From a virus: a stretch of 64,000 nucleotides of DNA. The notes under the pieces are model-generated. The model saw nothing but the letters and a program-made list of their open reading frames with translations. It did no database searches and was not told the origin of the DNA. Where the stretch lies: positions 1 through 64,000 of the IMG/VR virus record IMGVR_UViG_3300037140_000076, one strand, 5' to 3'. Position numbers and translations under genes: made by a program. Of this stretch, positions 30,778-61,720 are shown one piece after another; positions within the stretch are counted from its first letter, which is position 1; every line of letters begins with the position of its first letter.

Positions 30778-31497
30778 ATGTCAGGAATATATAAAATAGA
30801 AAACCCTGTTGGAGAAATTTATATAGGACAAACGAAAAGGACTTTTGAAAAAAGATTTGATCATTATTTTGTATTGGATTGTAAAAAACAAAAAGGGTTA
30901 TATAACTCTTTTATTAAACATGGAATAGAAAATCATAATTTTTATTCAATTCACGAATTAGATAAATATTCTTTACAAGAACAATTTAATTATTGGGAAA
31001 TTTATTATTATGAATATTATAAAAATTGTGGTTTTAAAATGTTAAATAAAATATTTCCTGGTAGTTATAGTATTTTAACAGAAAAGGGAAGATTAAAAAT
31101 GAGTATTATTCATAAAGGAAATAACAATAGATTAAATAAAACACATACAATTATTACTAAAAATAAAATAAGTAAAACAAAAATAGAACAAAATTTATCA
31201 TCCTGGAATAAGGGACTTTCATTAACAGATCAACAAAAAGAAAATTTAAGAGAAAAAAATAAAGGTAATAAAAACGCGAAAGGACATATTATTAGTGAAA
31301 AAACTAAACAATATTTAAGTAATGTAAATAAAATTCCTATTTGTCAATATGATTTAAATGGAAATTTTATTAAAAATTGGTCCTGCGGAAAAGAAGTTGA
31401 AATGGTTCTAAAAATTGATGCTGGAAATATTGCAAAATGTTTAAGAAATAAAGCAAAAACATCAGGCGGGTTTATTTGGAAATACTCATTAAATTAA
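30778..31497 (+). CDS. Free-standing GIY-YIG homing endonuclease
   Basis: 239 aa. The N-terminal nuclease domain starts 'GIYKIENPVGEIYIGQTKRTF', giving the GIY and YIG strands, and has a conserved Glu-rich helix region ('NYWEIYYYEYY'). The middle has NUMOD3-like basic segments. The C-terminus ends with a NUMOD1-like DNA-binding module (QYDLNGNFIKNW...GGFIWKY). It is inserted between the tailspike and the endolysin, and its codon use is even more A/T-rich than its neighbours', consistent with a mobile intron-less homing gene. Confidence 0.85.
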   Translation: MSGIYKIENPVGEIYIGQTKRTFEKRFDHYFVLDCKKQKGLYNSFIKHGIENHNFYSIHELDKYSLQEQFNYWEIYYYEYYKNCGFKMLNKIFPGSYSILTEKGRLKMSIIHKGNNNRLNKTHTIITKNKISKTKIEQNLSSWNKGLSLTDQQKENLREKNKGNKNAKGHIISEKTKQYLSNVNKIPICQYDLNGNFIKNWSCGKEVEMVLKIDAGNIAKCLRNKAKTSGGFIWKYSLN

Positions 31498-60322: not shown

Positions 60323-60347
60323 AATACTTATTTCTAAGGTTTGTCAG

Positions 60348-60705
60348 TGGACTAGTCGGAATTCGAATCCGAGTCTTCAATACAAAAAATCTTACTTTTC
60401 TTTATAGGTTTAGGATAACGATTTAATCTTACTACCGTTCCAAAAGAATTTTCCTACCCTCCACCACTCGGTTTAGGTCCGAGAACCATGCTACACCAGC
60501 CATTTTCTGTTTCAAGGTATGACTACCCATGCATCAAGCTAATTCCAGTTCTTCACTGAAAACCGAAGCGAGTATCGCTTCTCCTTCTGCAATACGTTCA
60601 GCTTTAGACTTTACGTTTGTTTGTTGCATATTTATTAAGGATGTTATATACTGCATCCACCTAAAATAAAACCTTTCAATACTGAATCAATAGCCTTTCT
60701 AGCCC
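60348..60705 (-). ncRNA. ssrA: Candidate phage-encoded tmRNA (ssrA-like)
   Basis: 358 nt, close to the usual 350-400. The 5' end GGGCTAG pairs with 3' CTAGTCC over 7 bp with G3:U70, the AlaRS identity pair; the discriminator is A73 and CCA is not encoded. The T-arm is TCGGA-TTCGAAT-TCCGA, preceded by a 'GAAGAC' stretch like the tmRNA consensus 'GGAC'. A GGATG/CATCC hairpin at nt 48-66, with loop bases able to pair downstream (ATATGC), resembles PK1. A second hairpin CTCGG-ACCTAAA-CCGAG (60467-60483) has loop CCTA pairing with TAGG at 60453-60456, an H-type pseudoknot. A tag reading frame ends at TGA 60534-60536. The canonical 'GGnUUCGAC' D-loop is not clear. Role: rescue of stalled ribosomes. 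Confidence 0.72.
60534..60629 (-). other. Tag reading frame within the tmRNA candidate
   Basis: An open frame from the ATG at 60629 to TGA (60534-60536) would encode MQQTNVKSKAERIAEGEAIL followed by ASVFSEELELA. In a tmRNA only the part after the resume codon is used; likely Ala resume codons are GCT (60600-60602) or GCA (60588-60590), giving a tag of about 18-22 residues. The ending 'ELELA' is hydrophobic and Ala-terminated, as degradation tags are. A 7-bp hairpin GAAGCGA-TAC-TCGCTTC lies within the frame. It could also be a real 31-aa protein. Confidence 0.5.
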
Positions 60706-60712
60706 ATAAATT

Positions 60713-60900
60713 AAAATAGTAGAGAGTCAAAGAGGTACGGATACGTGAAGACTATATTTCCCAATCTTTATAGTTATTTCCCGTTGCAACAGTAATAACA
60801 CCTCCAGTTTGTCGGAAGCTTTTTTGATTGGTACATCTCGGACACCGTTTCGACCACGCCCATGATCAGTGGGTTTGTGCGGTTCTTCATCTACTATTTT
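60713..60900 (-). ncRNA. Unidentified structured RNA closed by an 11-bp stem
   Basis: On the - strand AAAATAGTAGA (60890-60900) pairs exactly with TCTACTATTTT (60713-60723), enclosing 166 nt. Internal stems include ACTATA/TATAGT with a 12-nt loop, GTTATT/AATAAC, and CCCA-CTGATCA-TGGG. The 3' end is 7 nt from the tmRNA 5' end. There is no protein frame of note. It is not recognised: size is 6S-RNA-like, but the sequence is not obviously that, and an intron fold was not supported. Confidence 0.55.
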
Positions 60901-60910
60901 AAAAAAGTTA

Positions 60911-61004
60911 AAAAATAAGTCCCTTTCCCTTCACTATCCCAGGGTGGTTAATAAGGACTTATTTTTACGTACGCTGTTTTAGGCTACAGATACCTCATAC
61001 GTAA
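60911..61004 (-). other. Two stem-loops between tRNA-like gene and structured RNA
   Basis: A 12-bp perfect stem AAAAATAAGTCC / GGACTTATTTTT (60911-60922 with 60955-60966) encloses 32 nt and could act as a terminator or anti-terminator because of its T-rich 3' arm. It overlaps by two bases a second stem-loop TTACGTA...TACGTAA (60965-60971 with 60998-61004) with an inner CTGT-AGCCTAAA-ACAG hairpin. They cannot be fully formed together at the overlap, so alternative folding is possible. Confidence 0.5.
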
Positions 61005-61061
61005 CCATTGCCGTTAGAATATAGACCGATTTATGATACTATACAACGGTTGGATTTTTCG

Positions 61062-61130
61062 AACATCCAAGAGGAATCGAACCCCTGCTTCACCCTACAC
61101 GGGTGCGTCCTCCCACTAGACCATAGATGT
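61062..61130 (-). tRNA. tRNA-like gene with five-base anticodon loop
   Basis: A 69-nt cloverleaf on the - strand: acceptor ACATCTA/TGGATGT (7 bp, one G-U), D-arm GTC-TAGTGGGAG-GAC, anticodon stem CACCC/GGGTG, T-arm AGGGG-TTCGATT-CCTCT, discriminator T73, no encoded CCA. The anticodon loop inside the 5-bp stem is only GTGTA, two bases short; if one pair is opened it reads CGTGTAG with G, not U, at position 33. The amino acid cannot be assigned: UGU (Thr), GUA (Tyr) and GUG (His) can all be read from it. It may be a degenerate or specialised tRNA. Confidence 0.65.
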
Positions 61131-61155: not shown

Positions 61156-61187
61156 CAAAGATAAGTAACTTTTTTGAAACTTACAAA
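61156..61187 (-). promoter_or_regulatory. Strong host-type promoter of the stable-RNA operon
   Basis: On the - strand: TTTG-N20-TATCTTTG (CAAA at 61184-61187, CAAAGATA at 61156-61163 on the + strand), a perfect consensus. The start at about 61149 is 19 nt before the tRNA-like gene. The -33 box overlaps the end of the upstream HNH gene. Confidence 0.82.
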
Positions 61188-61720
61188 TATTTAAATTTAT
61201 ATCCAAATGCGTGTTTTTCAAGACCATTTAAAACATGCCAAATAGTTGATTGTCTTATTTTTAATTGTCTTGAAGCTTCCCTTTGAGAAATAAATTTTAT
61301 TTTTTTGTTTTTAGGAGATATAACTAAAATCTTAGTTGGTTTATTTCCCATGACTTTTTTCAATATATCCCTTGCATGTTGTATATTTTGTTGCCTTGTA
61401 CACCATTCAAGCTGAGAGGCCCGGTTATCAAGTTTATTTCCTTTCTTATGATTTATATCAAATCCTTTTTTATATCCTTTTACAAAATGTTTTCCAACTA
61501 ATATATGAACCTGGATTTTAGTAGATTTTCCATTTTTGGTTAAATCTAATTGTAAGTATCCTTTAGCATTTGGAGAAAGAATTCTATTTCTTCCCTTAAA
61601 TTTTTGTAAAATTCCATGTTTGGTTTTTATTATTCTATCAAGAGATTTAATATTACCATAATTACTTATTTGATAATAACCTTTGTATCCTTTTATATCT
61701 TTCCATTCTTTTTTCCTCAT
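61181..61720 (-). CDS. HNH homing endonuclease (NUMOD4-HNH)
   Basis: 179 aa. NUMOD4 'WKDIKGYKGYYQISNYGNIKSL', HNH 'GFDINHKKGNKLDNRASQLEWCT', then a helix-turn-helix C-terminal module ('SQREASRQLKIRQSTIWHVLNG') ending GYKFKYL. Its stop lies within the promoter of the RNA operon. The gene overlaps the upstream gene by 4 bp. A free-standing mobile endonuclease, placed next to tRNA-like and tmRNA genes, frequent targets of such elements. Confidence 0.87.
   Translation of the reverse strand: MRKKEWKDIKGYKGYYQISNYGNIKSLDRIIKTKHGILQKFKGRNRILSPNAKGYLQLDLTKNGKSTKIQVHILVGKHFVKGYKKGFDINHKKGNKLDNRASQLEWCTRQQNIQHARDILKKVMGNKPTKILVISPKNKKIKFISQREASRQLKIRQSTIWHVLNGLEKHAFGYKFKYL

Follow-up and report, generated by a model that had tools for sequence, protein, structure and literature searches.

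A one-piece tmRNA gene with a long phage-type tag in a crAss-type phage

The tmRNA gene and its surroundings

The DNA analysed here (the window, 64,000 nucleotides) is part of a 112,374-base IMG/VR virus record that may be an incomplete contig. On its minus strand, at 60347–60705, ARAGORN calls a one-piece tmRNA, and in a relaxed Rfam scan RF00023 matches 60345–60705 of the same strand along model positions 1–374 with 48.9 bits (E 6.9e-18), just over the gathering score of 47. A sequence-only reading had proposed a tmRNA in a 358-nt stretch at this place, and the ARAGORN call and the full-length RF00023 match, both of which span the two ends, bear the proposal out. The fast default Rfam scan of the window reported no tmRNA, a result that the relaxed scan reversed. 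The elements follow one another as 5′ acceptor strand, tag and T-arm; a two-piece (permuted) tmRNA is ruled out, as the T-arm does not precede the 5′ acceptor strand. The MFE z-score of the stretch is −2.28. The discriminator A73 lies at 60348 and ACTG stands in place of an encoded CCA, which must therefore be added post-transcriptionally. Together with the homologue and the covariation described below, these results identify 60347–60705(−) as a real tmRNA gene in a crAss-type phage. BLAST of the tmRNA region against 50,697 phage records gave no match; an RF00023 search of our genome collection missed known copies in two genomes (G000 and G001), and its negatives are left out here. Annotation overlooks such genes, as the default Rfam filters did here and as happened in the cultured isolate phi14:2.

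By its gene families the phage is of crAss type (Crassvirales and allies): TerL, portal and capsid fall into the crAss-type families phrog_6681, phrog_6547 and phrog_35737. The nearest TerL is that of Leptolyngbya phage Lbo-JY46 (41%), followed by those of csAssE-Sib, Cellulophaga phages phi17:2 and phi4:1 and human-gut crAss-like phages, with 26–31% identity to csAssE-Sib, phi17:2 and cr55_1; some of these nearest isolates have no placement in the order Crassvirales, and the assignment comes from the gene families. From these relatives we infer a host among the Bacteroidota. The record carries 19 tRNA genes. No SmpB gene was found in it by a search that, as a control, recovered the gene from 12 of 14 genomes, so the SmpB of the host would be needed. 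A close TerL relative (G002) is without the tmRNA and also without both flanking genes, so its lack of the tmRNA carries no weight.

Downstream of the tmRNA, an intrinsic terminator, GGCCCGGTATTTCTATATTGGGCC-TTTTTTTT, occupies 60322–60299 on the minus strand, with a 10-bp stem followed by U8, in agreement with the sequence-only reading. The same reading had the gene transcribed from a strong host promoter, which holds in part. A perfect Bacteroidota-type site by consensus match (TTTG-N20-TANNTTTG, also written TTTG-N20-TATCTTTG) is present at 61187–61156(−), ahead of a tRNA-Thr(UGU) gene (61061–61130, minus strand; ARAGORN, RF00005) that lies upstream of the tmRNA; however, directly before the tmRNA there is no sigma-70-type site, and a terminator-like hairpin stands between the promoter match and the tmRNA. 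The window holds 10 Bacteroidota-type sites against 4.5 expected, about twice chance. Adjoining the tRNA-Thr gene, at 61181–61720, is a NUMOD4/HNH-like open reading frame (MRKKEWKDIKGYKGYYQISNYGNIKSLDR...), and similar endonuclease-like frames recur at 30778, 34746 and 45263.

The fold and its conservation in a relative

The acceptor stem P1 pairs GGGCUAG (60699–60705) with CUAGUCC (60348–60355, including A73) in seven base pairs with G3:U70, as the sequence-only reading had it, and the T-arm UCGGA-UUCGAAU-UCCGA (60356–60372) pairs perfectly, the clean arm it described. That reading also held the canonical D-loop to be unclear and the form divergent. Divergent it is, but it is recognisable as GGCUAUUGAU within the D-loop region AAAGGCUAUUGAU (60686–60698), and it aligns with GGUAUUGACC or GGUUUUGACAG at the same place in relatives. 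The tRNA-like domain has a T-arm and a D-loop but no anticodon arm. Where the sequence-only reading had one pseudoknot-capable hairpin pair, the stems found are PK1 (60626–60658; S1 GGAUG/CAUCC, S2 GUAUAU/AUAUGC), PK2 (60499–60527; GGU/ACC and GUCAU/AUGGC) and the PK3 stem CUCGG/CCGAG (60467–60483), which precedes a conserved GUGGUGGAG.

A near relative found through a neighbouring protein (L002) carries a homologous tmRNA at its positions 1997–2393, which scores 41.3 bits with RF00023, below the gathering score. The two genes hardly differ in their first 47 nt and over most of their last 105 nt, whereas the sequences of PK1, tag, PK2, PK3 and T-stem are replaced, with each helix still pairing. 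The PK1 stem becomes AGCGU/ACGCU in the same register, at the same position 48; the second PK2 stem becomes GUCAC/GUGGC, the PK3 stem UUGCAU/AUGCAA and the T-stem ACCAG/CUGGU. The PK4 region is identical in window and relative and is not alignable in the others.

Ten tmRNAs whose tags are related were aligned, and the alignment extends this picture. Compensatory (double) changes occur in 39 of 61 predicted pairs. P1 and T-stem are 100% paired; all five T-stem pairs change on both sides. None of the 10 has lost G3:U70, whereas three other pairs of the acceptor stem change freely. A covariation score over P1, T-stem and one PK3 register is 0.469, versus 0.149 for shuffled and at most 0.156 for slid alignments. 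The single poor helix in this score is the chosen PK3 register, which is a few columns off in other rows; the PK3 register of RNAalifold itself pairs well, and pairs 248–254 with 272–278 covary. Acceptor, T-arm and pseudoknot stems covary in homologous phages, as the earlier proposal had called for in the case of acceptor and pseudoknots, and the tmRNA structure is, on this comparative evidence, selected. The chance that the stretch merely resembles a tmRNA is practically nil: the default Rfam filters missed it and its score is modest, but two independent programs, covariation of all major stems and a conserved tag frame argue against coincidence.

The identity between the window and L002 reaches beyond the gene. 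A block of about 286 nt (60659–60944, minus strand), made up of the leader and the 5′ end of the tmRNA and running from a terminator-like hairpin through a 38-residue open reading frame (60774–60890), is 100% identical, although a neighbouring protein is only 75–78% identical. The block also holds an inverted repeat, TTAAAATAGTAGA/TCTACTATTTTAA. Its identity may stem from a recent exchange or from strong constraint. The leader was considered as an additional structured RNA and rejected, as its fold is no better than those of shuffles (z −1.17). In L002 the tmRNA is immediately followed by an HNH-type endonuclease-like frame (L002:2418–2985) that the window lacks; the patchwork of identical and replaced segments could be a result of homing.

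The tag, its family and the hairpin inside it

What is unusual in this tmRNA is its tag, which the sequence-only reading did not mention beyond an internal tag frame. That frame is present: it begins with the resume codon GUA at 60614, 11 nt past PK1, ends with a stop codon at 60534, and encodes, according to ARAGORN, the 26 residues VKSKAERIAEGEAILASVFSEELELA. In L002 the corresponding frame reads DKKELSTEMSVDAQGNLVFASEEVLELV, and its end-anchored C-terminal match to the window tag was reached in 0 of 50,000 nucleotide shuffles and 7 of 50,000 residue shuffles. A further relative, identified by its terminase (G014), bears the tag AEVSSIEVGNDVDAVLASIFEDEAVMA; for this comparison (window with L255), the counts were 0 and 1 of 50,000, respectively.

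Scans of IMG/VR DNA widen this to a family. The pattern [DE]A[IVM]LAS[IVM]Fx[DE]E occurs at six loci, five of them tmRNA tags, and of 27 matches to EGEA[IV]LAx[IV]F, 26 represent tag frames in tmRNA-like genes (for example VKSQSERVAEGEAILASIFATEYALAA, AKTQSERVAEGEAILASIFADEAVAA and AMTQSERVAEGEAILASIFGEVAVAA); ARAGORN calls a complete tmRNA at 11 of the viral loci bearing family tags. The consensus, about 26 residues long, is R[VI]AEGEA[IV]LAS[IV]F...A. Several of its positions lie outside what was searched for: R-[VI]-A before the core is invariant in the 26 tags, the final residue is alanine in all 26, and the free position of the pattern is serine in 14 of 14 unique cores, written with four different codons. 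A crAss-type terminase is found in 17 of 25 contigs with the tag; the other eight, one of them 180 kb long, are without crAss-type terminase and portal, and the tmRNA may have spread to other phages or these contigs may be fragments.

In 84,980 prokaryote genomes, the first of these patterns has no match. We also fetched 85 tmRNAs from bacterial genomes, mostly Bacteroidota, with a tag-blind 5′ pattern; save for two evident miscalls, these bear GENNYALAA-type tags of 9–10 residues. Since the family tag occurs in phages, the first pattern is found in none of the scanned prokaryotes and Bacteroidota tags are different, the tag type appears to be a phage trait as far as the pattern scans reach. 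A literature search for the tag string, with subscription papers and preprints mostly outside its scope, found no paper naming the tag. A PDB search gave no match, nor did tblastn of tag peptides against phages, for which queries so short may be below sensitivity (one of them was a Bxz1 tag). Mimicry of another protein of this phage was set aside; the best local match, VKAKSPNIEEGDAI in a 1740-residue protein, is weak.

The core of the tag is at the same time a hairpin. The family codons EGEAILASIF (in the window EGEAILASVF, 60558–60587) fold into 12–13 bp (GAAGGUGAAGC...GCUUCUAUCUUC), and in 14 of 14 unique cores the A codon and the L codon have third bases that pair with each other, as GC, AU, UA, CG or UG, where 7.4 would be expected when synonymous codons are shuffled. 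The total hairpin pairing was reached in 0 of 5000 such shuffles, a contrast that kinship among the sequences inflates somewhat. In typical tmRNAs, as in that of E. coli, helix H5 lies across the tag end. The in-frame hairpin is probably the equivalent of H5, lying wholly inside the tag because the stop codon comes later.

Two explanations of this conservation can be weighed against each other. The first is that the tag is conserved only as the code of an RNA hairpin, the peptide having no special role and the tmRNA being otherwise an ordinary one in which the stop codon comes, by chance, after H5. The pairing at synonymous sites is what this explanation predicts, as is one sequence (L255) in which a change of E to D is accompanied by changes in the A and S codons opposite, so that pairing is preserved. 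We regard it as a serious possibility, though one we lean against. It does not account for R-[VI]-A, which precedes the hairpin, or for the final alanine past it, both invariant among the 26 tags, and in another single sequence (L259) the serine is kept as AGC at the cost of three hairpin pairs, which suggests that the peptide also counts. Moreover, the sequence of H5 is subject to drift in other tmRNAs. The second explanation is that R[VI]AEGEA[IV]LAS[IV]F is a dedicated phage peptide that sets the fate of rescued proteins, with the in-frame hairpin tuning translation of the tag. This too we regard as possible but less likely than not; if it is true, the peptide could address another protease or adaptor, allow escape from ClpXP or bind a phage factor. 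Since the hairpin covaries at synonymous sites, the tag core looks to be under constraint as a peptide and as an RNA fold alike, a clear example of a short stretch of sequence constrained in two ways. The tag family and its hairpin are the part that is new to us; the tmRNA itself is of a kind already known.

Trans-translation by the phage and its precedents

In trans-translation, a tmRNA is alanylated by way of G3:U70, binds SmpB and resumes translation after PK1, with release at the stop codon of the tag. We consider it very probable that 60347–60705(−) is a working phage tmRNA that adds alanine and a phage-type 26-residue tag with the SmpB and AlaRS of the host. The tmRNA would be transcribed together with the tRNA gene and then trimmed, the host would add CCA, and alanine would be charged through G3:U70. 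With host SmpB, it would enter stalled ribosomes and resume at GUA (60614), adding alanine and the tag, including the codons of the presumed H5 that typically lies at the tag end, before a normal stop, so that truncated proteins would bear AVKSKAERIAEGEAIL... (AVKSKAERIAEGEAILASVFSEELELA) at their C termini. A conserved, phage-specific tag type would thus replace the short tag of the host.

Probable benefits here would be the recycling of ribosomes stalled on mRNAs cleaved or truncated during infection and, as rescued fragments would receive a tag of the phage's choice, control over their fate. Because the tag family was seen here in phages known from uncultured material but in no bacteria, ribosome rescue is probably steered by the phage in a manner of its own, and a long tag conserved across phages and absent from the scanned bacteria makes phage-specific selection on the tag probable. 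The question of why phages carry tmRNAs thereby becomes a testable one, namely what recognises the tag peptide. The tag ends do not point to one fate: with endings of ELELA in the window and LELV in L002 in place of LAA, degradation by ClpXP is uncertain for these two, whereas ALAA and AVAA endings in relatives (others have VMA) suggest that for some family members, at least, the tag does direct proteolysis.

Two further explanations would deny the RNA this role. In one, it is a decoy that titrates SmpB or AlaRS and so blocks host trans-translation. Phages do have RNAs that consist only of the tRNA-like domain, as in mycobacteriophage DS6A (PMC4131195) and about ten IMG/VR sequences of 75–81 nt, and a domain-only molecule is mentioned as inhibiting tmRNA (PMC4131195, citing Mao et al. 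2009). A decoy, however, needs no selected tag, and here PK1 is exactly spaced to a conserved, stop-terminated tag frame, which makes this account very unlikely. In the other, a host tmRNA gene or fragment was acquired as an integration site and has no phage function; integration often takes place at tmRNA genes, and fragments of such genes occur in prophages (PMC9004378). We find this most improbable, because the gene is full-length and its structure selected, the same kind of tmRNA occurs in many viral contigs, and the tag differs from the 9-residue Bacteroidota tags, while the scan of bacterial genomes with the related pattern gave no match.

With the bacterial one-piece tmRNA (ssrA, RF00023), the working phage tmRNA proposed here shares G3:U70, A73, the T-arm, the lack of an anticodon arm, P2, PK1 before the resume codon, the tag frame and, as far as PK2 and PK3 show, further pseudoknots. 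It differs in its 26-residue tag (versus 9 in Bacteroidota) with the LELA end, the H5-like hairpin fully within the tag frame, the divergent D-loop and the absence of an SmpB gene from the phage. Phage tmRNAs as such have ample precedent, with ten listed in 2014 (PMC4131195) and 402 found among 18,146 phage genomes in 2021, given as 2.3% (PMC9004378). Like that of the window, those of mycobacteriophages Bxz1 and Wildcat and of Bacillus phage G (PMC4131195), OM43 phage Melnitz (PMC9004378) and Cellulophaga phage Calle (PMC8776804) are phage-borne and often lie among tRNA genes. The statement that tmRNAs are little described in Bacteroidota phages does not stand, as they have been reported for Calle, Maribacter phage Panino (PMC11590407) and Chryseobacterium phage MA9V-3 (PMC13120357), and one is annotated in GenBank for Crassvirales cr50_1 (MT774375). 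The phage tmRNAs whose tags were read here carry tags other than the window's, among them Enterococcus phage iF6 (AKNEELLAVA), and Melnitz-type genes are two-piece in contrast to the one-piece window gene. Two further comparisons lie within the crAss-type phages: the tmRNA of cr50_1 is permuted, with the tag GNNFVTDYTAIGA, whereas that of phi14:2 is one-piece with another tag, ending LAMVA. The latter, unannotated in this cultured Cellulophaga phage, lies at NC_021806.1:4031–4502(+) (L109:1501–1970; RF00023 46 bits, E 1.8e-18; ARAGORN 470 nt). The tag that ARAGORN gives, GSSVQKLAMVA (11 residues), is probably the end of a longer one, because the frame is open far upstream.

Several other phage RNAs were seen along the way. 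Permuted two-piece tmRNAs occur in crAss-type and gut phage contigs (L226, which is cr50_1; L229; L404, MT835863; L223; L224), three of which have in common a second tag type, GN..[FY]VTDY[TS]...A; the Bacteroidota sampled have one-piece genes. Other phage tmRNAs (L044, L066, L067 and L012) have long tags, most of them not LAA-ended (for example AKSIVSPYFAMKDLLGSPSNFALV and VNDNVEVPAWMISANAAALQAAA), so long tags recur in phages. The domain-only RNAs follow the plan GGGCUAG...GGUUUCGA...short hairpin...T-arm...CUAGUCCA and were found at L015, L018, L020, L027, L030, L037, L060, L077–L081, L084, L086, L091, L092 and L095. They may inhibit trans-translation, and their stub stem appears to covary.
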